Source: Bacteroidales bacterium (GTDB lineage: Bacteria; Bacteroidota; Bacteroidia; Bacteroidales; 4484-276). From it: DNA of 50,578 bases. A program made the translations under genes and the position numbers. Below, piece by piece: positions 10,518 to 45,187 of this stretch. The notes under the pieces were generated by a model. It was not told the origin of the DNA. It did not search any database and saw only the letters and a program-made list of their open reading frames with translations. The stretch spans positions 1 through 50,578 of the forward strand of contig JACZJL010000109.1 of the NCBI GenBank assembly GCA_014860585.1, in the 5' to 3' direction. The stretch's first letter is position 1. Each line of letters opens with the position of its first letter.

Positions 10518-11876
10518 ATGAAAAAAATGATCTATGCTCTCCTGGCATTCAGCTTAATCATCTCAGGCTGCGGGCAGACTACAAGCAATAAAGTTAAAGC
10601 ACCAGTAAGTAAAGTAACACACCCGGAATGGTCCCAAAACGCCAACATCTACGAAGTCAACCTGCGCCAGTACACCGAAGAAGGCACCCTTGGCAGCTTC
10701 ATCAAACATATGCCCCGGTTAAGAAATATGGGGGTCGATATTCTCTGGTTCATGCCGATTCATCCGATCGGTGAACTGAACCGCAAAGGCACACTGGGAA
10801 GCTATTACTCAGTACAGGATTACAAACAGGTGAATACTGAATTTGGCAGTATTGAAGAGTTTCAGATGGTAGTAAAACTTGCCCATGAATTGGGGATGTA
10901 TGTCATTATCGACTGGGTCGCCAACCACACCGCATGGGATCATGACTGGGTGACCCGCCACCCCGACTGGTACGCGAAAAACGAAAAAGGGGAAATGTTT
11001 TACCCGGCTGACTGGAAAGATGTGGTACAATTGGATTATAACAACATGGAGATGCGCGATGCGATGATCGACGCACTCAAATTCTGGATCACCGAAGCTG
11101 ATATTGACGGCTATCGTTGCGATGTGGCATCCATGGTTCCCACTGATTTTTGGGAAAATGCACGCATGGAACTCGACAAAATAAAGCCGGTGTTTTTGCT
11201 CGCTGAAGCGGATAAGGAAGAATTGCTGATGAATGCTTTCGACATGGATTATGGTTGGAAACTTCACCACATCGCCAATGAGATTGCTCAGGGAAAAGCC
11301 AATGCCAACGATTTACAAAGGTATTTTGATGATCTCGACATTACATTCCCTCAGGGCGCTTACCGCATGAACTTTACCTCCAACCATGACGAAAATACCT
11401 GGAAAGGCACTGAATTTGAACGACTGGGAGATGCCGCTCAAACATTCTTTGTTTTGATGGCCACCGTCCCCGGAATGCCTCTGATTTACACCGGTCAGGA
11501 GGCAGCAATGGACAAAAGACTCAATTTCTTTGAAAAAGATGTGGTAGATTGGAAGGATATACCACTACTACAATTCTACCGGACTTTGCTCAACCTGAAG
11601 AAGAGAAGCCAGGCGCTCTGGAATGGCAACGCAGGTGGTCCAATCAAACGTATTTACACTCACCAGGATGAATCGGTGTATGCTTATACACGTTCCAAAG
11701 AAAACAACACGATATGTGTAATTCTAAATCTGTCTGGCAAAGAAACCTCATTCCAACTGCAGGGCGAAGGATATGAAGCCATATACAAAAACGTATTTTC
11801 CGGAGAAGCTCAACCCATCTCCAAAGAGCAACAATTGACCCTTGCTCCCTGGGAATACCTGGTATTAGAGAAATAA
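10518..11876 (+). CDS. GH13 alpha-amylase family lipoprotein
   Basis: The 452-residue protein has a lipoprotein signal (MKKMIYALLAFSLIISGCGQ, lipidated Cys at 18). All GH13 conserved regions are present: IIDWVANH (region I, about 129-136), DGYRCDVA with nucleophile Asp 202, LLAEADKE with acid/base Glu 230, and TSNHDENTW with the NHD triad at 289-291. A short C-terminal beta domain follows (TICVILNLSGKE). It should cleave alpha-1,4-glucans or maltodextrins at the cell surface or in the periplasm. The tight TIM barrel without large inserts suggests small oligosaccharide substrates, as in neopullulanase- or cyclomaltodextrinase-like enzymes. It converges with a starch-binding esterase gene 27 bases away. 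Confidence 0.93.
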   Translation: MKKMIYALLAFSLIISGCGQTTSNKVKAPVSKVTHPEWSQNANIYEVNLRQYTEEGTLGSFIKHMPRLRNMGVDILWFMPIHPIGELNRKGTLGSYYSVQDYKQVNTEFGSIEEFQMVVKLAHELGMYVIIDWVANHTAWDHDWVTRHPDWYAKNEKGEMFYPADWKDVVQLDYNNMEMRDAMIDALKFWITEADIDGYRCDVASMVPTDFWENARMELDKIKPVFLLAEADKEELLMNAFDMDYGWKLHHIANEIAQGKANANDLQRYFDDLDITFPQGAYRMNFTSNHDENTWKGTEFERLGDAAQTFFVLMATVPGMPLIYTGQEAAMDKRLNFFEKDVVDWKDIPLLQFYRTLLNLKKRSQALWNGNAGGPIKRIYTHQDESVYAYTRSKENNTICVILNLSGKETSFQLQGEGYEAIYKNVFSGEAQPISKEQQLTLAPWEYLVLEK

Positions 11877-11903
11877 ACTTCTGCGTTCGACGATCCGGCA
11901 GGT

Positions 11904-13295
11904 TTAAAGAATCATGATTTTCTGGTTGAAACTTACTTTTCCGCCATTAACGGTAACAATATAAAGGCCTTTCAGGTTGCCGGAAATTGTTTTTGAACTT
12001 CCCGGTGTTATGCGGGATTGAAACACGGTTTGCCCTGTAATCGAATAAACAGTGACGTCAAAAAGTTGATCAACCAGCGCTGAATCTTTTGCCTCAAGGT
12101 AAAGTTTATCGCAGATGATCCTAGCACGGATCGGAATGCCCGGCATAAATTCGTCAATTTCGGTTGAGCCATCAAGATAAAGCCATTGGTAAGCCTGGCC
12201 GAATTGTGTGCGCCACAGCAACTCGTTGTGTTGCCCTCCGGGAACTACTTTCAGGTAAAGTTCCGAATCGTCAAAACCGGCAGCCTGCAAAGTGTCCATC
12301 ATCAGGTTCATCTGCTGAACGAGGCCGCCGCTCTCGTTGGTTCCCCCCATCATATAATAGCGCATCGGGTATACTTTTCCTGTCTGATAGGCAAAAATGT
12401 AACTTGAATCGCTGAACCAGAATGAGGGAGAAAAAACACCAGCTTTGCTTAAGATTTCCTGGTATTTCAACCCGATATAATGAGAGATCAGCCCACCGAG
12501 TGAACTCCCCATCACACCGGTATGCTCACGTTGTGGCTTTGTGCGGTAATGCTCATCAATGTAAGGCTTAAGTGTTTCTACGATAAATTTTGCATACAGA
12601 TCGCCATCGCCGCCTCCGTATTGCTGGTTCGGCCAGGGAGTGTATTCGGCTATACGGTAAGTGCCTCCATTGTCAATCCCAACCACAATTGGCACCTCTT
12701 TTCCATTGCTAAAAAGGGAATTTAGCGTTTCATCCACCTCCCATTCGCCGGCAAAAGAAGTGTACAGATCGAAAAGGTTTTGCCCATCGTGCATATAGAG
12801 CACGGGATAATCCTTTCCTGATGTTTCATAATCGGGGGGAAGGTACAACCAGATGCGACGTGTACGGTTGAGTTGCGGCATAAAAAACGCATTGTCCATG
12901 ATCACCACATTTTCTGCTGCCGTAGTCCCCGGTCCGCCAAGGTCTTCCCAACTCAGGATGGTTAGCAACAAGGTGTCTTGAGTACCGAAAGTGAATGTCC
13001 GGTTGGGCAGGTACCCGCCTGTTTCGTTTCCCTCCACTGTTGCCCAGCTTCCACGGGTAAATTTAAACTGTATAGTTCCTGTGCCGTTGATCACAATCTG
13101 GGGTTGCCCGTTTGTGTTGGATTGAAGGATGAAGGTTGCATTTCCCGGGTCCCAGCCGTTGAAACTTCCAGCTATGAAAATGTTATCCTCCGGTGGAGTA
13201 TTGGCCGGTATCGAAGTCACAATCATGGTTACCTCTGCAGCCCTGGCAAAAAGCACTATGAGGAACATGAACAAAAGAAAGAAAAAGTTTTTCAT
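11904..13295 (-). CDS. Starch-binding-domain esterase with T9SS type A tail
   Basis: The 463-residue protein has a signal peptide (MKNFFFLLFMFLIVLFARAA), then a CBM20/CBM48-like N-terminal domain (FIAGSFNGWDPGNATF, then IQFKFTRGSW and NRTFTF). An esterase D/enterochelin-esterase-like alpha/beta hydrolase follows: LYLPPDYE, YPVLYMHDGQNLFD, and the nucleophile elbow GSSLGG with Ser about 265. GGQHNELLW carries a plausible catalytic His. The last 75 residues look like a T9SS type A sorting domain (FDVTVYSITGQTV, then LKGLYIVTVNGG and a basic hydrophobic end). It is predicted to be secreted and anchored on the surface. The substrate is probably acyl groups on a polysaccharide or glycoconjugate. 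The amylase next door supports a starch-related role, but that is inference. Confidence 0.87.
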   Translation of the reverse strand: MKNFFFLLFMFLIVLFARAAEVTMIVTSIPANTPPEDNIFIAGSFNGWDPGNATFILQSNTNGQPQIVINGTGTIQFKFTRGSWATVEGNETGGYLPNRTFTFGTQDTLLLTILSWEDLGGPGTTAAENVVIMDNAFFMPQLNRTRRIWLYLPPDYETSGKDYPVLYMHDGQNLFDLYTSFAGEWEVDETLNSLFSNGKEVPIVVGIDNGGTYRIAEYTPWPNQQYGGGDGDLYAKFIVETLKPYIDEHYRTKPQREHTGVMGSSLGGLISHYIGLKYQEILSKAGVFSPSFWFSDSSYIFAYQTGKVYPMRYYMMGGTNESGGLVQQMNLMMDTLQAAGFDDSELYLKVVPGGQHNELLWRTQFGQAYQWLYLDGSTEIDEFMPGIPIRARIICDKLYLEAKDSALVDQLFDVTVYSITGQTVFQSRITPGSSKTISGNLKGLYIVTVNGGKVSFNQKIMIL

Positions 13296-13767: not shown

Positions 13768-16700
13768 ATGAAACGGCTCTTTTTCTTCGTGTTATCTTTT
13801 CAACTTTTTGTAAACGGGGGATTACTGTCTCAAAACCCTCAGATTATGGTTCAGATGAGGCACAGTGATGAGGTGAATTCAGCGGTGTTTGCTCCCGACG
13901 GCAGGGCTGTAGTTTCGGGATCAGCTGATAACACGGTCAAAATCTGGGACACCAAAACCGGATACCAGACAGATACTTTAAACATCAGGTTGTATGTATC
14001 CACTGTGGCGGTTACACCTGACGGCTCAAAAATCCTGGTAAGCACTTCGCGTAACCTTATTGTACTTGATTACGAATCTAAGAAAACGTTATTCAAAATC
14101 CCGGACCTTAAGAGTGCAGTCCATATTCATTGTTCAGCCGACAGCAAATATGCTGTATTGTCTTGTACAGATGATGTGAGCAGAATTGTGGACCTGGAGG
14201 CAGGCAGGGTGGTTTCACAACTTTATTATGAATATGTGGAATGCTCGGTTTTTTCGCCGGATATGAAATACCTTGTAATTTGTGGCGTCAATCGAATTAA
14301 CGGTGGACTGGGGATACCTGATCTTTATGACATTGAACTTATCCGGGCGCCAAAAAAGATTGGAACACTTGGGTTTGATAACTGCCATGCAGTAACCTTC
14401 TCACCTGATGGCAAGTACCTGGCTGCGGGAACTCACAATGGTGCAATTATGATCTACAATATGAAGAGTAAGAAAAAGGAGGGACGAAAGATCGGCAATC
14501 ATTCTCCAAATAAGGATTATTATGTCAGTTGCATAAGTTTCACGAAAGATGGAAAATACCTGATTTCGGGCTCACAGGATCATACAATAAAAATATGGGA
14601 TCCTTTAACTGGTAACCTGATCAGAACACTGGATGACTTTACCGATGATATTAACTCAATAGATATATCACCTGATTCAAAGAAGATGATTTCCACGTCC
14701 TTCGAAAATGTGATCAGGTATTGGGATATTGAATCAGGAAAAGAAGAACAGGTATTTAAATCGGAGGCCTCGGTGGTTTATGCAGTGGATATTTCGCCCG
14801 ATGAAAAGTTTTTCATTGCCGGGTGCGGGGATAAGACGGTCAAACTATTCGACAACTATTACGGGAACCTTGTAAGAGTAATGGAAGGGCACAAGTACCT
14901 GGTGAAATTTGCCTGTTATTCACCCGATGGCAAATATATTTTAAGCGCTTCAACAGATAAAATTACAGATGATTATCAGGGCGATGTAATTCTGTGGGAT
15001 GCAGCATCCGGACAACAATTAAAATATTTCACCTGCTCAGGCAGTGTTAACTCAATTGATTTTTCACCGGACTCAAAGCAGTTCCTGGTCTATGATTTTA
15101 ACCCATTTGTTTATAACGTTTTAAACGGTGAACAAAAATCTTTGAATTTTTCTGACCTGGCAGCCTGGATGCCTGATTCAAAAACAATTTTGGTGGCCAT
15201 GAATACCAGCTCAGAAAACCTGCGGCTAAGAATTATGGACCCGGTTTCGGGCAACATCCTGAAAACAATGTACGACTTAGGTTCTGGCGGTATTACCTCG
15301 CTATTTTTATCGCACGACAGGAAATTTGCTGCCATAACTTCTGACAATAAGCTCACTGTCTTTAATACAGCAAGCGGCAAAGTCGTTTCAACCCTCGACA
15401 TAGATTCCTATTATGCCCGATCCATTGCTTTTTCATACGATGCTTCCCTGCTTGCTGTTACATCCTTTAAAAGAGTTGATTTCTGGGAAATTGCAACAGC
15501 TACAAAAATCAGAAGTATCGGGCTTCATCAGAATTTTGTGGAATCCATCAAGCTAAGCAAGGATGGTAAAACAATGCTGACCGGTTCGCAGGATGGAACC
15601 ATCAGAAAAACCAACCTGACCAACGACCGGTCAATCGCTTTTATCGGCGACGGCACAGGGAAGGAGTGGATCATGTTTGACAATGACGGATTCTGGGACG
15701 CTTCAACAAGGGTGGGAAGTCTGGCTACACTTAATATTCCGGGTAAAATTGCAGGGGTGGATCAGTTTGCTGCATGGACCAACCGACCGGATAAAATTTT
15801 TGAAAAATTTGGTCTGCGAGACCAGGAATTGATCACCCATTACAAAAATCAATACCTGAAACGTCTGAAAAGGCAGGGACTCAATGAAAGTCAGCAAACT
15901 GACCTTTCTGACATTCCGGTTACAGAAATTAACGAGATGACTCAAAACGGGAAAAATGTTACTTTAACGTTTTCATTTACAGACAACTCGAATGCGATCA
16001 CTTCGTACAACATTTTTATGAATGATGTACCGGTTTTTGGGGCAAAAGGAAAACTGTTGGCTGATAACCGGACTGCTATTGTTGAGGTTGTTGAGCTGAC
16101 TGCAGGCGAAAATAAAATTGAAGTCTCATGCACCAACAGCCGCGGGATTGAAAGCTACCGGGCATTAACATCAGCAAAATACGAGGGTGAAGTGGCCAAA
16201 AACCTTTATTTTATTGGGTTTGGTGTGTCGAGGTATCAATTTTCTGAATTAAACCTGAAATATGCCGACAAAGACGCCACCGACCTCGAAAAAGTGATGC
16301 AGGGAATGAAGGGTAAAGGTTTTGAAAATGTATTCACAATGACGCTTTTAAATGAAGATGTGACGCCGGCGGCGATCAAAAAAGCAAAGGAATTTGTACA
16401 AAATGCAAAACCCGACGACACCTTTGTCCTGTTTATTGCCGGCCATGGTATGCACGACAAAGACGCCGACGCCACCTATTATTATCTGACTTCCAATGCC
16501 GACCTCAATAACCTGAAAAACACCGCTGCCGATTTCGAAACCATCGAAGACTTGTTGCAGGGGATTCCTCCCCGCAACAAACTTTTCCTCATGGATGCCT
16601 GCGAAAGTGGTGAAATGGATGAAGAATTCCAAACCAGCCAGATTGCCCAGGCTGACCTGAAATGGATGCAATCACGCGGTATGAAAAGGATCGAAACGAA

Positions 16701-17049
16701 ATCAACCGTGCAGCCAACCCAATCATCAGGCCGCAGCTATCTTGCACAGAAAGACCGCTTCATTTACAACGATTTGATCCGCCGAAGCGGCGCCATCGTC
16801 TTTTCCTCTTCAAAAGGAGGGGAACTGAGTTATGAACGCAGCGATATCGAAAACGGGTTGTTTACCGAATATATTCTAAAAGCCTTTACTACTGACGTAG
16901 CCGATACCGACAGCAATGGCCTGGTCAGTACCAGTGAATTGAGGGATTATGTTTCAGCGCAGGTGGCTCAAAGTAGCGGTAACCTTCAGCATCCGACCGT
17001 TGACAGGGATAATATATTCCAGAAGTTTGATTTTCAGGTGACAAAATAA
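13768..17049 (+). CDS. Exported WD40-repeat protein with C-terminal caspase (peptidase C14) domain
   Basis: The 1093-residue protein starts with a signal peptide (MKRLFFFVLSFQLFVNGGLLSQ). Residues about 28-620 are WD40 repeats; SGSADNTVKIWD, SGSQDHTIKIWD and TGSQDGTIR are the clearest blades, enough for two propellers. A linker with an Ig-like look follows (about 700-790). A caspase-like domain starts near 808 with NLYFIGFGVSRY. Its catalytic dyad is intact: His 893 in IAGHGMHD and Cys 945 in LMDACESGE, followed by IVFSSSKGGELSYE and NGLFTEYILKAF. Caspase-fold proteases usually cut after Arg, Lys or Asp. The WD40 part should bind a partner and present or restrain the protease. Unlike cytoplasmic bacterial caspases, this one is predicted to be exported. 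It is monocistronic, and its target is unknown. Confidence 0.9.
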   Translation: MKRLFFFVLSFQLFVNGGLLSQNPQIMVQMRHSDEVNSAVFAPDGRAVVSGSADNTVKIWDTKTGYQTDTLNIRLYVSTVAVTPDGSKILVSTSRNLIVLDYESKKTLFKIPDLKSAVHIHCSADSKYAVLSCTDDVSRIVDLEAGRVVSQLYYEYVECSVFSPDMKYLVICGVNRINGGLGIPDLYDIELIRAPKKIGTLGFDNCHAVTFSPDGKYLAAGTHNGAIMIYNMKSKKKEGRKIGNHSPNKDYYVSCISFTKDGKYLISGSQDHTIKIWDPLTGNLIRTLDDFTDDINSIDISPDSKKMISTSFENVIRYWDIESGKEEQVFKSEASVVYAVDISPDEKFFIAGCGDKTVKLFDNYYGNLVRVMEGHKYLVKFACYSPDGKYILSASTDKITDDYQGDVILWDAASGQQLKYFTCSGSVNSIDFSPDSKQFLVYDFNPFVYNVLNGEQKSLNFSDLAAWMPDSKTILVAMNTSSENLRLRIMDPVSGNILKTMYDLGSGGITSLFLSHDRKFAAITSDNKLTVFNTASGKVVSTLDIDSYYARSIAFSYDASLLAVTSFKRVDFWEIATATKIRSIGLHQNFVESIKLSKDGKTMLTGSQDGTIRKTNLTNDRSIAFIGDGTGKEWIMFDNDGFWDASTRVGSLATLNIPGKIAGVDQFAAWTNRPDKIFEKFGLRDQELITHYKNQYLKRLKRQGLNESQQTDLSDIPVTEINEMTQNGKNVTLTFSFTDNSNAITSYNIFMNDVPVFGAKGKLLADNRTAIVEVVELTAGENKIEVSCTNSRGIESYRALTSAKYEGEVAKNLYFIGFGVSRYQFSELNLKYADKDATDLEKVMQGMKGKGFENVFTMTLLNEDVTPAAIKKAKEFVQNAKPDDTFVLFIAGHGMHDKDADATYYYLTSNADLNNLKNTAADFETIEDLLQGIPPRNKLFLMDACESGEMDEEFQTSQIAQADLKWMQSRGMKRIETKSTVQPTQSSGRSYLAQKDRFIYNDLIRRSGAIVFSSSKGGELSYERSDIENGLFTEYILKAFTTDVADTDSNGLVSTSELRDYVSAQVAQSSGNLQHPTVDRDNIFQKFDFQVTK

Positions 17050-31827: not shown

Positions 31828-34368
31828 TTATAGATTAGGAAAAGTAAATTGTACTGATTCTGTGACTTTTAAATAATAGGCTTTTCCCGGAGTAAGCCAC
31901 TGTAAAGTCTGGATTTGCTGATCAGGCCAGAATATGCCAAAACCGGCAACTTCCTGAATCATAATTAATCTTCGTCCTAAAACAGATTGCATACTGGCGC
32001 TGCTAACAGGCGTTTCGGACAGCACCGGGATAAGGTTCCAGCCCTCTGTCAGCGAAATGGTTTTATTCTGAACCGGGGAACCAACAATATTTAACTGGTT
32101 TGCCTCGCTGAGTTTGATCAGATAGCCCCTGCGGGCGTTCCAGGTTTCGAGGGTGTTGATGTTGAGCGCCGGATGATAAATTCCGTCATCACCTTTAATT
32201 AAAATAAGGTCCTGAGTGATAGGTGCTGTAAGGATTTCAATCTCCGGATTTATGGGATGAACATTCGATGAAATGCCGGCCCAGCCTGCATTTAAACTGA
32301 TCTGTTGTTCCAAAATACATGAAATCAATGCTTTCCATCCGGAAGCTGTTGCTGACACATCTGATTTGAACTGAAAAGTCAATTTCCCTGATGGATTTGT
32401 TGCCATGATGGTTCCGGGCGAATTTGTCCCGCAGTAAGTTCCGATCAAAGGGGCGCTGGTGTTTGCACCGTCAAATATTTTCAGCCAGTCGTAACTGCAG
32501 GTGGAGTGCGGTTCAAGTGAAAATTCGAGAAAATCTGCTTTCACCATTGCCCCGGTGGTTTCTGGCGAAAAAGTCAATGTCAGGTTTGAGTTGTTGGGAT
32601 AATTTCCGGATGCCCCGCCGGAATCGTAAAACAAACCATTGCAGGTAGTTATTGTTGAATTGCTCATCAGATAAACCGGGCTAACCCGGATAAAATCCTC
32701 AAAAATCTTAGTCGCTGTTTCTCCGTCGCTGTTGGTAATGGTGAGTGTCACATCAAAACTTCCCGCAGCATTATATTGAATTCCACCCGGATTTCGCTGT
32801 GAGGATGAAGCAGGCTGTCCTCCCTGGAATGACCATTGCCACGAAACCGGCCTGCCAAATGATTCATCGTTAAAATCAACTGCAGAGCCGGTAATTACAT
32901 GATTCTCAGAAGCACTTATTTGGGGGTCTAACTCACCGGCATCCAGTTGAACATTCAGTGTTGTTTTATTATAACGATTTACATTAACAGCTGTAACCGT
33001 CACGGGTAAGTAGCCGGGCGCCGTAAACGTCAGGTTATAGGTACCGGCTTCCAGCAACCTTTGGTAAAATCCGTGCTCGTTTTCTGAATAAATATGCGAA
33101 TTATCAAGGTCGTGTCCTTCAATGGAAATTTTTGCAACAATCGGATCTCCGGTTTCGATATCGGTAACTGTGCCTGCAACACCATACGTAACTTGTTTGA
33201 TGTAATTCAACAGCGACCGGTAATTCCAGTCCCAATGGACTGGCAACTGAGTTGGGGGGAGTTTTTTGGTTTTTGATATTTCCATGGTCAATTCCCGGCA
33301 ATTATGGAAATAATTCATGTAGTCCTGCCTCCCGCCTGAAATGGTGTACCAGGCATAGCCGTTGGTGATCCCGTTATTAAATCCATCCAAATAGGTTGAA
33401 GGAGAATAGATGTGCACTGTGTCCACATACTCGCGACAAACATAAATCCACCAGTTGTTGTCGGCTGCCAGCCGCGACCAGGTGTCCCAGGGATAATTCA
33501 ACACCTCCTCTCCACCATGTGTGTTTCCGGACATTACGAAGTTGTTGTCTTCAGCCAGTTGCATAAAGGCGATGGTTTCCGGTTGCCAGGCTTTACCATC
33601 CGGGTGGGGGCCATCTTCCGGATCAGGATAATTCCGGTTCAGGTCAACATTATTGGCATTGTATCGCACAGCCGCGTTCACAGTGCTGTTGCCGCCTTTG
33701 TAAGTCCCGTCAGGGTTTGAAAGTGGATTGATCCAGATTTCCACATTGTCAAGCAAGTAGGTTACTTTTGGATCAGCGCCGTAATTGGTGAGCAGGTAAT
33801 CAATCAGGCGCAGAAAAAGTACATACCCGGTCAATTCGTCACCGTGGATGGTTCCGGTGTAAAGAAACTGTGGTTCGGGTTCACGAACGGAGACATTTGT
33901 CGAAATTTTTGCCATCATCAGTTGCCTGCCCTGCACCGATGTTCCGATGCTGAACACCTGGCATAACGACGGATATTGGGTGGCAAACTGGTTCATCATG
34001 CTGATGTAGCCTTCATAAGTCGGGTAAAAATCCCAACTGGTAATTTGCCTGACATCTACCTCATCAAGCATAGTGAATATCGCTTCATCGGCAGGCTCTT
34101 CAAATACACGATAGGGAAGGTTAAATGTGAGAAATTGTGCAAACTCTTCTGCATTAGCATAGGCTACAACCTGATTGCCGTTCACGTTATCGATGGAAAC
34201 AATTCCCGAGATTTTATTGAGCAGGTCGCGGTCATCAACTTCGAAAGTAAAATAAATTCCGGGAGTTTGAATAAAATCGATACCGGTGTTTTGCAGGATT
34301 GACCCTTTTTCCTGGCTGAATGCAGGAATGAAGGCTGTAATTGATAAAATGATAATTAGAATTCTCAT
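31828..34368 (-). CDS. Secreted M14 zinc carboxypeptidase with PKD, CUB and a two-repeat C-terminal module
   Basis: The 846-residue exopeptidase starts with a signal peptide (MRILIIILSITAFIPAFS). The M14 domain spans about residues 130-390: zinc ligands His 175 and Glu 178 in IHGDELTGY, NPDGTYKGGN, the third-ligand region GNTHGGEEV, and the catalytic Glu in ELTMEIS. A carboxypeptidase regulatory-like domain (GVAGTVTDIETGDPIVAKIS), a PKD domain (WQWSFQGG, then YNAAGSFDVTLTI) and a CUB domain (WLKIFDGANTSAPLIGTYCG) follow. The last 165 residues are two similar halves (LNAGWAGISS, then LTEGWNLIPVLS) and match the end of the 14-heme cytochrome encoded in this window. It should trim C-terminal residues from peptides outside the cell. 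It starts 10 bases after the patatin gene. Confidence 0.92.
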   Translation of the reverse strand: MRILIIILSITAFIPAFSQEKGSILQNTGIDFIQTPGIYFTFEVDDRDLLNKISGIVSIDNVNGNQVVAYANAEEFAQFLTFNLPYRVFEEPADEAIFTMLDEVDVRQITSWDFYPTYEGYISMMNQFATQYPSLCQVFSIGTSVQGRQLMMAKISTNVSVREPEPQFLYTGTIHGDELTGYVLFLRLIDYLLTNYGADPKVTYLLDNVEIWINPLSNPDGTYKGGNSTVNAAVRYNANNVDLNRNYPDPEDGPHPDGKAWQPETIAFMQLAEDNNFVMSGNTHGGEEVLNYPWDTWSRLAADNNWWIYVCREYVDTVHIYSPSTYLDGFNNGITNGYAWYTISGGRQDYMNYFHNCRELTMEISKTKKLPPTQLPVHWDWNYRSLLNYIKQVTYGVAGTVTDIETGDPIVAKISIEGHDLDNSHIYSENEHGFYQRLLEAGTYNLTFTAPGYLPVTVTAVNVNRYNKTTLNVQLDAGELDPQISASENHVITGSAVDFNDESFGRPVSWQWSFQGGQPASSSQRNPGGIQYNAAGSFDVTLTITNSDGETATKIFEDFIRVSPVYLMSNSTITTCNGLFYDSGGASGNYPNNSNLTLTFSPETTGAMVKADFLEFSLEPHSTCSYDWLKIFDGANTSAPLIGTYCGTNSPGTIMATNPSGKLTFQFKSDVSATASGWKALISCILEQQISLNAGWAGISSNVHPINPEIEILTAPITQDLILIKGDDGIYHPALNINTLETWNARRGYLIKLSEANQLNIVGSPVQNKTISLTEGWNLIPVLSETPVSSASMQSVLGRRLIMIQEVAGFGIFWPDQQIQTLQWLTPGKAYYLKVTESVQFTFPNL

Positions 34369-42454: not shown

Positions 42455-45187
42455 ATGTCAAGTCAAATGAAAACAAAACCAGCCCTGTTATTAGTGATTT
42501 TAGGATTAGTAAGCATTTTTTTGACAAGTACCAAAAACCCAAAAGATGAACAATACATTGTGATCACTTGGAATGACCTGGGGATGCACTGCAGTAACAT
42601 GGATTTTTCGAAAATTGCTGTACTGCCGCCGTATAATAATCTGACCGCTTATGTGATTAAAAAAGGGTCAGCCACGACATCACCCGAAATTCTTACCACC
42701 GGTTATACAGTTAACTATGAGGTTCCGGGCAATACGTATTCGGTTGGCAAAACCAATTTCTGGAGTTATGAAGATTTACTTTTTGGGGTTAATTTACCCG
42801 ATAATATTGGGCTAACTGGTGCTGGATTAAATGGGCAAATGGAGATAAGGGAAAATTCGTTTTTCATCGATGGAGTTCCAATAACACCTTACACCGATGC
42901 AAACCTGGTTACCGAAGACCCATACCAGTTGGCTCTGGTTCAAGCTTACGACGGAAGCGGAAATCTGCTAGCAACAACACAAAACGTTATTCCGGTTTCA
43001 AACGAGATGAATTGTGTAAGTTCTGGCTGTCATGCCAGCGAAACAGCCATTTTAAATGCACATAATTCCGAGGGAGGTTTTGACCCCTATAATACACCTA
43101 TTTTATGTGCCAACTGCCATTCATCCAACGCCTTGGGTAAGCCGGGAGTGGAGGGGGTTCCTTCTTTTTCGGAAGCCATGCATGATAAACACAAGGATAA
43201 AACCAATGATTGTTATCAATGTCATCCGGGGCCCAATACACAATGCTACAGGGATGTAATGCATGCCGAAGGAATGGTTTGTCAGGATTGCCATGGATCT
43301 GTTGCAAATGTTGCTCTAACCATCCAAAATGGCAGACAGCCCTGGTTGCAGGAGCCATCCTGCGGAGCCCTGGAATGTCATGGCCAAACGCACGCCGAAG
43401 AACCCGGTAAACTTTTTCGCAATTCGAAGGGACATGGGGGGTTGTATTGCAGCACCTGCCATGGTTCGCCGCATGCCATTTTACCCAGCGAAAATAACAG
43501 AGATAATCTGCAAAACATCGCCCTGCAGGGCTTTGCCGGAACACTGCGCGACTGTTCGGTTTGCCATGGGATTACACCTGAAGGACCCGGGCCTCACGGA
43601 TATACACCACAACCCGGTGGCGGAGAAGATTTCGTTGTAATGGCCTGGAATGATTTGGGAATGCATTGTGCAAACAAGGATTTTTCGAAAATTGTGGTTC
43701 TTCCACCGTACAATAACATCAAAGCAGAGCTGATAAGAAAAGGAACCGAAACAAGCTGGCCCGAAGTGGTGACCACTGGTTATCAGGTTACCTATGAGAT
43801 TCCTGGAAACACTTATTCAGTGGGCAAAACAAATTTCTGGAGTTATGAAGACCAAATATTTGGTGTTAACCTGCCTGACAACGTTGGATTGACCGGCGCC
43901 GGTTTAAGCGGAGATATGGCCATCAGCGGAAAGAGTTTTTTTGTTGACGGCGTGCCTATCGCACCTTTCACAGATGCAAACCTTGTTGTGGAAGATCCTT
44001 ATCAACTGGCGCTAATTAAAGCATTCGACGGAACCGGCAGACTTTTGGCCACCACACAACCGGTGATTCCGGTATCCAACGAAATTAACTGTGTGAGTTC
44101 AGGATGCCATTCGAGTGAAAATGCAATTTTAAATCAACACAGCGACGATGGAGGTTTCAATCCAAACAACACACCCATACTTTGTGCAGAATGTCATGGT
44201 TCGAATGCCCTTGGATTGCCGGGAACACCGGGCTTAGGTTCGCTATCCCTGGTAATTCATGAAAAGCATAAAAGCTCAACTAATGATTGTTATAAATGCC
44301 ATCCCGGCCCAAACACACAATGTTACCGCGATGTAATGCATGCAGCAGGAATGGTGTGCCAGGACTGTCATGGGAGTATGGAACAAATAGCTTCATCCAT
44401 CGAAAATGGAAGAATACCGTGGCTTCAGGAACCATCCTGCGGTTCAATTCAATGTCATGGTCCGGCATATGCTGAAAATCCAGGAGAACTTTTCCGCAAT
44501 TCAAAAGGTCATGGCGGCTTATATTGCAGCACCTGTCATGGTTCACCTCATGCTATCGTTCCGACAACGAACGACCGGGATAATGTTCAGAACATAGCAC
44601 TTCAAGGCTATAAAGGAACATTAAACAACTGTGCAGTTTGTCACGGTAATATCCCGGCTGGAGCCGGCCCTCATGGTTTGCCAGGGCCGACTGTTGCCGA
44701 GCAAAGCATCCAACTTCCCGGCGGATGGAGCGGCATTTCGTCATATTTAATACCGTTAAACAAGGAAGTTAATTATATTTTCGAGCCGGTGATGGATAAT
44801 TTTATTCTGTTGACCAACAACTACCAAACATACTGGCCTAATCAGGCGGTAAACACCATTGGTGACTGGAAATCAGACCAGGGGTATATTGTAAAAATGC
44901 AAAATCCAGATGTTCTTCCTTTTAAAGGAATTGTTGAAGCCAACAAGTCGCTATCACTTAGTAGTGGGTGGAATATCATGCCCGTACTGAGTAATTGTCC
45001 TGTTACCGTAGATCAACTCTTTGCTGCCTACCCAGTTCAACTGGTAATGGTGAAAGAGGTTGCCGGATGGAAAGTTTATTGGCCAGGAATGGGTATAAAT
45101 TCACTTCAAACGCTTAGCCCCGGAAAATCCTATTTCGTGCTAACAAATATCCCTGTTAGCATTGTTTTTCCAGCTTGTGTAAAATAA
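42455..45187 (+). CDS. 14-heme secreted cytochrome c made of a tandem 359-residue duplication
   Basis: The 910-residue protein has a signal peptide (KPALLLVILGLVSIFLTS). Two repeats follow, each starting WNDLGMHC (first at 42569, second at 43646, offset 1077 bases or exactly 359 codons, no indel). Each has an N-terminal beta-rich domain (GNTYSVGKTNFWSYED, LTGAGL, TDANLV), then seven heme-binding motifs: CVSSGCH, C-C-H in CANCH/CAECH, CYQCH/CYKCH, CQDCH, CGALECH/CGSIQCH, CSTCH and CSVCH/CAVCH. Four of the 14 are the rarer CX4CH form. The two repeats look more than two-thirds identical. The last 160 residues repeat the two-half module seen at the end of the M14 peptidase. It should be exported and move electrons outside the inner membrane; donor and acceptor are unknown, and no maturation genes are nearby. 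Confidence 0.9.
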   Translation: MSSQMKTKPALLLVILGLVSIFLTSTKNPKDEQYIVITWNDLGMHCSNMDFSKIAVLPPYNNLTAYVIKKGSATTSPEILTTGYTVNYEVPGNTYSVGKTNFWSYEDLLFGVNLPDNIGLTGAGLNGQMEIRENSFFIDGVPITPYTDANLVTEDPYQLALVQAYDGSGNLLATTQNVIPVSNEMNCVSSGCHASETAILNAHNSEGGFDPYNTPILCANCHSSNALGKPGVEGVPSFSEAMHDKHKDKTNDCYQCHPGPNTQCYRDVMHAEGMVCQDCHGSVANVALTIQNGRQPWLQEPSCGALECHGQTHAEEPGKLFRNSKGHGGLYCSTCHGSPHAILPSENNRDNLQNIALQGFAGTLRDCSVCHGITPEGPGPHGYTPQPGGGEDFVVMAWNDLGMHCANKDFSKIVVLPPYNNIKAELIRKGTETSWPEVVTTGYQVTYEIPGNTYSVGKTNFWSYEDQIFGVNLPDNVGLTGAGLSGDMAISGKSFFVDGVPIAPFTDANLVVEDPYQLALIKAFDGTGRLLATTQPVIPVSNEINCVSSGCHSSENAILNQHSDDGGFNPNNTPILCAECHGSNALGLPGTPGLGSLSLVIHEKHKSSTNDCYKCHPGPNTQCYRDVMHAAGMVCQDCHGSMEQIASSIENGRIPWLQEPSCGSIQCHGPAYAENPGELFRNSKGHGGLYCSTCHGSPHAIVPTTNDRDNVQNIALQGYKGTLNNCAVCHGNIPAGAGPHGLPGPTVAEQSIQLPGGWSGISSYLIPLNKEVNYIFEPVMDNFILLTNNYQTYWPNQAVNTIGDWKSDQGYIVKMQNPDVLPFKGIVEANKSLSLSSGWNIMPVLSNCPVTVDQLFAAYPVQLVMVKEVAGWKVYWPGMGINSLQTLSPGKSYFVLTNIPVSIVFPACVK

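Follow-up and report, generated by a model that had tools for sequence, protein, structure and literature searches.

Gene, repeats and heme motifs

The window analysed here is a stretch of 50,578 nucleotides from a Bacteroidales bacterium (GCA_014860585.1, contig JACZJL010000109.1, positions 1 to 50,578 of the forward strand). At 42455-45187 it contains an open reading frame (ORF) for a cytochrome with 14 heme motifs (Table 1), whose product is, as judged from the sequence, probably a secreted electron-carrying protein. Comparison of the 910-residue protein with itself gave 264 identities at an offset of 359 residues and only 18-41 at every other offset between 350 and 369, and the two repeats align without an indel within the unit. 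Each repeat contains five CX2CH and two CX4CH motifs. When the protein was shuffled 2000 times, the mean number of heme motifs was 0.093 and the maximum was 3, as compared to the 14 observed. The initial annotation of this gene had described two such 359-codon repeats with seven motifs each, two of them CX4CH, and the offset comparison bears this out. It had also called the tandem duplication exact, whereas the repeats share 70.8% identity in protein and 68.5% in DNA.

Structure prediction had been suggested as a check. An AlphaFold2 model of repeat 1 built from a 41-row alignment shows a two-part unit at low confidence (mean pLDDT 66.6, pTM 0.67), in which the first ~150 residues are beta-rich and the heme part is coil and helix. 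Foldseek with this model found no PDB match at E <= 0.001. Besides the heme cysteines, the window protein contains C46, C264, C405 and C623, together with C848 and C908 in its C-terminal module, and no others.

Table 1. Positions of the cytochrome gene, its repeats, domains and heme motifs in the window
Feature	Position	Strand	Basis
Whole gene, 910-aa cytochrome, 14 heme motifs	42455..45187	+	ORF translation, motif count
Probable signal peptide, about residues 1-30 (first cysteine is residue 46)	42455..42544	+	translation and cysteine list, by eye
Repeat 1, residues 34-392	42554..43630	+	offset-359 comparison, alignment
Beta domain of repeat 1, about residues 34-184, with invariant GMH motif and C46	42554..43006	+	model strands, invariance; boundary approximate
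Heme motif 1, CX4CH, residue 187	43013..43033	+	motif count, alignment
Heme motif 2, CX2CH, residue 218	43106..43120	+	motif count, alignment
Heme motif 3, CX2CH, residue 253	43211..43225	+	motif count, alignment
Heme motif 4, CX2CH, residue 276	43280..43294	+	motif count, alignment
Heme motif 5, CX4CH, residue 303 (CX2CH in some relatives)	43361..43381	+	motif count, relatives
Heme motif 6, CX2CH, residue 332	43448..43462	+	motif count, alignment
Heme motif 7, CX2CH, residue 367	43553..43567	+	motif count, alignment
Repeat 2, residues 393-751	43631..44707	+	offset-359 comparison, alignment
Beta domain of repeat 2, about residues 393-543	43631..44083	+	by register with repeat 1
Heme motif 8, CX4CH, residue 546	44090..44110	+	motif count
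Heme motif 9, CX2CH, residue 577	44183..44197	+	motif count
Heme motif 10, CX2CH, residue 612	44288..44302	+	motif count
Heme motif 11, CX2CH, residue 635	44357..44371	+	motif count
Heme motif 12, CX4CH, residue 662	44438..44458	+	motif count
Heme motif 13, CX2CH, residue 691	44525..44539	+	motif count
Heme motif 14, CX2CH, residue 726	44630..44644	+	motif count
C-terminal module of ~160 residues, residues 751-910, unnamed, amplified in the bacterial family of the genome	44705..45184	+	

Relatives of the unit and age of the doubling

A scan of genome contigs found 36 loci (given L numbers here) that encode the unit, i.e. the beta domain and the heptaheme domain. The unit is single in 33 of them; a search for such one-repeat relatives had been proposed. 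Most loci are labelled Bacteroidota; other labels are Chlorobiota, Ignavibacteria, Calditrichota and Zixibacteria/GN15, and one is a plain 'bacterium'. The Chlorobiota label of L015 is doubtful: its unit is almost identical to that of the Bacteroidota locus L014. Five CX2CH and two CX4CH motifs per unit were found in 32 of the 36 loci, L009, L010 and L031 of these having two units, and six CX2CH and one CX4CH in two others (L038, from the cultured Maribellus sediminis, and L040). L012 contains two one-unit genes side by side. In L030 a paralog with eight hemes (11832-13121, minus strand) lies 2.4 kb from the seven-heme gene. It is like repeat 1 in its GMHC N-terminal domain, its heme order, seven extra histidines and two cysteines (see below), with 46% identity, but unlike the window unit its eight motifs are all CX2CH and its start is lipoprotein-like; Pfam finds no secretion signal in it. 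In a draw of 296 genomes from the phylum, the unit is present in six, with the window's own genome counted and one match only weak. Four of 12 genomes of its own family have the unit, and by equal open-frame lengths three of these are likely those of L009, L010 and L011.

The family of this unit is unnamed and, as far as our searches went, appears to be new, as do its link with the signal of the type IX secretion system (T9SS) and its repeated doubling. The initial annotation had stated that the protein has no close named family; this holds for the name, but relatives exist. Judged by titles and abstract openings, the literature searched yielded no paper describing the heptaheme family, which is not proof of its absence from print, and none joining type IX secretion and multiheme electron transfer. 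The window protein probably belongs to a known kind, the multiheme surface cytochromes.

The relatives allowed us to look for candidate heme ligands in an alignment of 41 units, which included L039, apparently shortened by a frame change near its end, and excluded the second gene of L012. Five histidines outside the motifs (H45, H203, H243, H246 and H340) are kept in all 41 units, and H327 and H381 in 40, the exceptions being a Met in L037 and a gap in L039, respectively. The near-invariant extra histidines are thus seven per unit, the same number as the heme motifs. H45 sits in the N-terminal domain within the motif GMHC. Other non-motif histidines are less conserved (H270 in 21 of 41 units, H313 in 4). 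C46 and C264 are both kept in 40 of the 41 units. L041 (4855-6276) is the sole unit without this pair, both cysteines being replaced. Six further units were checked (L135-L138, the second gene of L012 and the L030 paralog), and all six, including the eight-heme paralog, have the seven extra histidines and both cysteines. Seven bis-His hemes per unit would fit the seven extra histidines, as a correlation, and a putative C46-C264 disulfide would fit the joint loss of both cysteines, seen once, in L041.

CX4CH is an established heme motif in Desulfovibrio cytochrome c3. The initial annotation had raised the doubt that the CX4CH motifs of the window protein might not bind heme; tested on sequence, the sites look genuine. 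The second CX4CH is replaced by CX2CH in L038, L040, the L030 paralog, L136 and L137, and in the L030 paralog the place of the first one is also CX2CH. Because the two forms interchange at a fixed position among relatives, the CX4CH places are probably heme sites.

The two-unit protein also occurs, with both of its repeats, in L009 and L010 (87% and 71% identity, respectively), so that the duplication is shared with two related genomes. In L011 the same C-terminal module stands on a protein with a single unit. In the tree, repeat 1 of the window protein groups with repeat 1 of L009 (100/100) and repeat 2 with repeat 2 (99/100). By path length each L010 repeat is nearer to its counterpart in the window; the tree is unresolved there, so it is not settled that the L010 doubling was the same event. 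In Zixibacteria L031 the two repeats form a sister pair (100/99), and therefore the doubling arose there independently. From these groupings, the doubling appears to have arisen at least twice, in the window lineage and in L031.

Agreement between the window repeats at third codon positions is 43%. A recent duplication is ruled out because 79 of 115 comparable fourfold sites differ, and the dS of -1 between the repeats is read as saturation. The initial annotation had also considered that the duplication might be an assembly error, to be checked by read depth. Even without read depth, the divergence of the repeats, which differ at 31.5% of bases, rules this out. Judged from these differences, the duplication is old. 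The dN/dS values against L009 are 0.066/1.12 (about 0.06) for repeat 1 and 0.072/2.03 (about 0.04) for repeat 2; because these are low, both repeats look to be under purifying selection.

C-terminal module, export and neighbouring genes

Secretion signals were searched for in 38 family proteins: that of the window, those of 35 loci (the broken L039 was left out), the second L012 gene product and the L030 paralog. At E <= 0.01, the T9SS type A signal TIGR04183 matches 23 of the 38 and PF18962 (Por_Secre_tail) matches 24, not all above cut-off. CHU_C (PF13585) matches four proteins weakly, and dockerin three, at the same threshold. By eye, the tails of L009, L010 and L011 contain the module of the window protein (confirmed there by search), the first gene of L012, L019, L023 and L043 share another unnamed tail, and L038 has a MopE-like motif with a weak C-terminal domain (CTD). 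Since the tails of the relatives differ, the same unit has been fused to several tail kinds. The genome of the window encodes SprA and has at least 150 TIGR04183 matches (150 of 302 candidates scored).

The C-terminal module recurs at 82 other places in this genome, with 85 profile matches in all. Among the 85 module domains (L059-L134 and the window), 26 end the protein (0-19 residues left), 54 continue into more sequence, 51 of them by 216-236 residues, and five are cut or partial. All five sampled proteins of the longer-tail class end in Por_Secre_tail, compared to none of five in the terminal class; in the longer-tail proteins ~145 residues lie between the module and the type A signal. Within the window, an M14 carboxypeptidase with CUB and PKD domains (31828-34368, minus strand) ends in the same module without a T9SS signal. 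The module profile has 28-114 matches per genome in all 12 family genomes examined, and 36 of the 296 genomes of the phylum draw have at least one match (up to 12 candidates scored in each genome). A partial module match (E 2.4e-5) followed by Por_Secre_tail is present in L137, a cytochrome with one unit that comes from another family. The module copy of L075 (own-genome contig C77) is broken by an in-frame stop, and several matches in family genomes (e.g. G002, G008 and G011) hold one in-frame stop, which may reflect a pseudogene, an error or a match that runs beyond the stop.

Like the CTDs of the T9SS, the module forms the very C-terminal end of 26 proteins, and the genome encodes a type IX system. 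Its length is also similar to that of the type B signals, given as 150-235 residues in PMC12618676. Unlike a T9SS CTD, it precedes a longer tail and a type A CTD in the five sampled proteins of that class, as a sorting signal should not. With 51 of 85 copies followed by 216-236 residues, the idea that the module is a sorting signal is weakened, though it may still hold for the 26 terminal copies. The module matched no CTD model in Pfam or NCBIfam, libraries in which a model for the type C CTD (cl41395; PMC10202324) was not identified. Five module sequences gave no NCBIfam match up to E 1 and only single weak Pfam matches (best E 0.026). AlphaFold2 with these five sequences predicted the fold at a pLDDT of 91.1, and this fold has no PDB match at E <= 0.001 (best Z 4.1), by which a new fold is not proven.

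The cytochrome gene is flanked by genes for a serine dehydratase and an MBOAT acyltransferase, and no CX2CH or CX4CH motif occurs in the 34 other window ORFs (>= 80 aa, non-overlapping set), in agreement with the initial annotation that no electron-transfer genes stand beside it. Seven window proteins besides the cytochrome were scanned by Pfam, and the others were assessed by ORF listing and motif count. One window ORF (13768-17049, plus strand) encodes a 1093-residue protein with many WD40 repeats. The neighbours of the relatives, which the initial annotation had proposed to compare, revealed no conserved operon: 12 neighbour clusters are each shared by 3-5 of the 37 sequences (36 loci and the window). 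Representatives of ten of these were scanned by Pfam and are an M3 peptidase, two M48 peptidases, MeaB, DUF3810, a glycosyltransferase, GH57, glycogen synthase/phosphorylase, a short-chain dehydrogenase and one unmatched protein.

Elsewhere in the same genome, a row of five genes on contig C27 (L047, 3969-12483) is a candidate outer-membrane electron conduit. The row encodes, in this order, a 289-residue protein without a Pfam match, a 443-residue FAD/4Fe-4S oxidoreductase, a 530-residue protein with 20 CX2CH motifs, a 1030-residue protein with 40 CX2CH motifs and a 541-residue protein without a Pfam match, which is possibly a barrel. From an anode community, PMC8258643 describes a Bacteroidetes gene cluster with six multiheme genes and one for a predicted barrel. 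The genome also has one PF01578 protein in a 1052-residue frame, which reads as a fused CcsBA.

Proposed function and comparison with known cytochromes

With moderate confidence, we favor the explanation that the window protein is a c-type cytochrome which is secreted and transfers electrons from one partner to another, on the outer membrane or beyond it. Each unit would consist of a beta domain packed on a heptaheme chain in which all hemes are bis-His, and the two units would join into one 14-heme path. A CcsBA-type enzyme, whose gene lies elsewhere, would attach the heme in the periplasm, and the cytochrome would then cross the outer membrane, probably via the type IX system, to be held or displayed at the surface by its C-terminal module. 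There it may take electrons from (or give them to) an outer-membrane cytochrome system, e.g. the 20-heme/40-heme cluster on contig C27, and deliver them to a neighbouring cell or to an acceptor outside the cell. With two units in place of one, the path may be longer and the capacity higher. The initial annotation had suggested an extracellular electron conduit in a Bacteroidota. The extracellular placement and the Bacteroidota origin are retained, by inference from the relatives. The term conduit is doubtful because no barrel partner was recognised beside the ORF and nothing suggests membrane spanning; a terminal or bridging surface cytochrome fits better.

Several results weigh against this explanation. 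The window protein has neither a type A (TIGR04183/PF18962) nor a type B (TIGR04131/PF13585) CTD, and because of this the case for its export is built on the relatives and the module. Two of the 36 loci (L035 7953-9428 and L039 727-1878) lack one heme motif each. Two other genomes of the same genus examined do not have the cytochrome, and therefore it is not essential to the group. Pfam on seven proteins and the motif count on 34 ORFs revealed no electron-transfer neighbour in the window, and none of the ten scanned neighbour clusters is an electron-transfer protein. The 40-heme protein is present in three of the four family genomes with the cytochrome versus one of the eight without it, several of the genomes being incomplete; this link is not significant (Fisher p 0.067) and is suggestive only. 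The 541-residue barrel-like protein is found in two of the four and one of the eight, respectively. The low confidence of the unit model leaves the packing of the hemes to inference.

The absence of a CTD from the window protein is what one would expect of a periplasmic electron carrier or store, in which the module is merely a structural domain and the protein stays in the periplasm. The 26 module domains that end their proteins, none of the five sampled having a CTD, point the same way. We regard this as unlikely, since TIGR04183 matches 23 of the 38 family proteins and the other module protein of the window is the M14 peptidase with CUB and PKD domains, which are usually extracellular. Weak matches, far under cut-offs, to DmsE-type and nitrite-reductase pentaheme (NrfB-type) cytochromes would accord with a secreted multiheme enzyme, one heme of which reduces or oxidises a small soluble substrate (a nitrogen, sulfur or metal oxyanion). 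Such an enzyme is somewhat more improbable still, as the near-invariant extra histidines equal the hemes in number and so offer every heme a candidate distal ligand, and no catalytic subunit was recognised beside the gene.

Extracellular cytochrome filaments are formed by OmcS, OmcE and OmcZ, and the window protein could be a building block of such a filament, its doubling being a step towards polymer-like stacking. That the protein is probably secreted and that the doubling arose at least twice would both suit this idea. The large N-terminal domain of each unit and the bulky C-terminal module argue against end-to-end stacking, and sequence searches up to E 1 hit no filament cytochrome of known structure, although a distant relation may exist; we give the filament very little weight. 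If the favored surface cytochrome is indeed secreted and conductive, it would link type IX secretion with multiheme electron transfer. The GMHC N-terminal domain together with the 4-2-2-2-4-2-2 heme pattern provides a searchable signature for surface electron transfer outside the Mtr/Omc families, and the natural one-unit/two-unit pairs provide a means to test the effect of doubling a heme chain.

The window heme segments are like the cytochrome c7/c3 superfamily in scoring above the Pfam cut-offs of PF14522 (39 versus 24.8 bits) and PF14537 (39.1 versus 25 bits). Both models are short and generic (67 and 79 positions); they cover the heptaheme domain only in part and the N-terminal domain not at all. 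Sequence searches against solved structures gave a best E of 0.32 with the single sequence and 0.5 with the profile (flavocytochrome c3), neither significant. A second fold search with the low-confidence unit model returned Ig-like beta sandwiches first (best Z 5.9) and MtrC chains at Z 3.8-4.6, all within background.

MtrC, OmcA, MtrF and UndA of Shewanella are described as having a beta-multiheme-beta-multiheme plan and a conserved cysteine pair (PMC7096707, PMC4486940). A beta-heme-beta-heme plan like that of MtrC and OmcA is predicted for the window protein, from the model of repeat 1 and by register for repeat 2, and its family has a conserved cysteine pair as well. Unlike the MtrC type, each window unit has seven hemes, two of them at CX4CH, versus five (or six) per heme domain. 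A lipoprotein anchor is a feature of MtrC/OmcA-type cytochromes, whereas the window protein has none and its first cysteine lies well past the signal peptide. The window cysteine pair would bridge the beta domain and the heme domain, whereas the MtrC-type pair is within domain III. The window units are still 71% identical, whereas the halves of MtrC are far more divergent, and no mtrAB was recognised beside the window gene. PF22113 (MtrC/MtrF domains II/IV) matches nine of the 38 family proteins at E <= 0.01 (best 1.7e-8), with no match to the window protein up to E 1. Among ten proteins scanned singly, only the L030 paralog passed its cut-off (34.6 versus 30 bits). PF22113 also matches three other multiheme proteins of the genome and is therefore not specific.

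Tentatively, and with considerable doubt about the whole, we suggest that a separate MtrC-like surface cytochrome evolved in Bacteroidota and allied phyla, apart from Shewanella, consisting of a GMHC beta domain and a heptaheme unit, doubled independently at least twice, with a putative redox disulfide from the distal-ligand motif to the heme domain and with type IX delivery. In the window's family the sorting signal would have been exchanged for the unnamed module with its confidently predicted, unmatched fold, and the module would represent a new C-terminal sorting or anchoring class. The window protein is laid out like MtrC, yet its membership of the MtrC family is not established, several defining features of which fail here; its MtrC-like plan seems to have arisen separately from that of the surface cytochromes of iron reducers.

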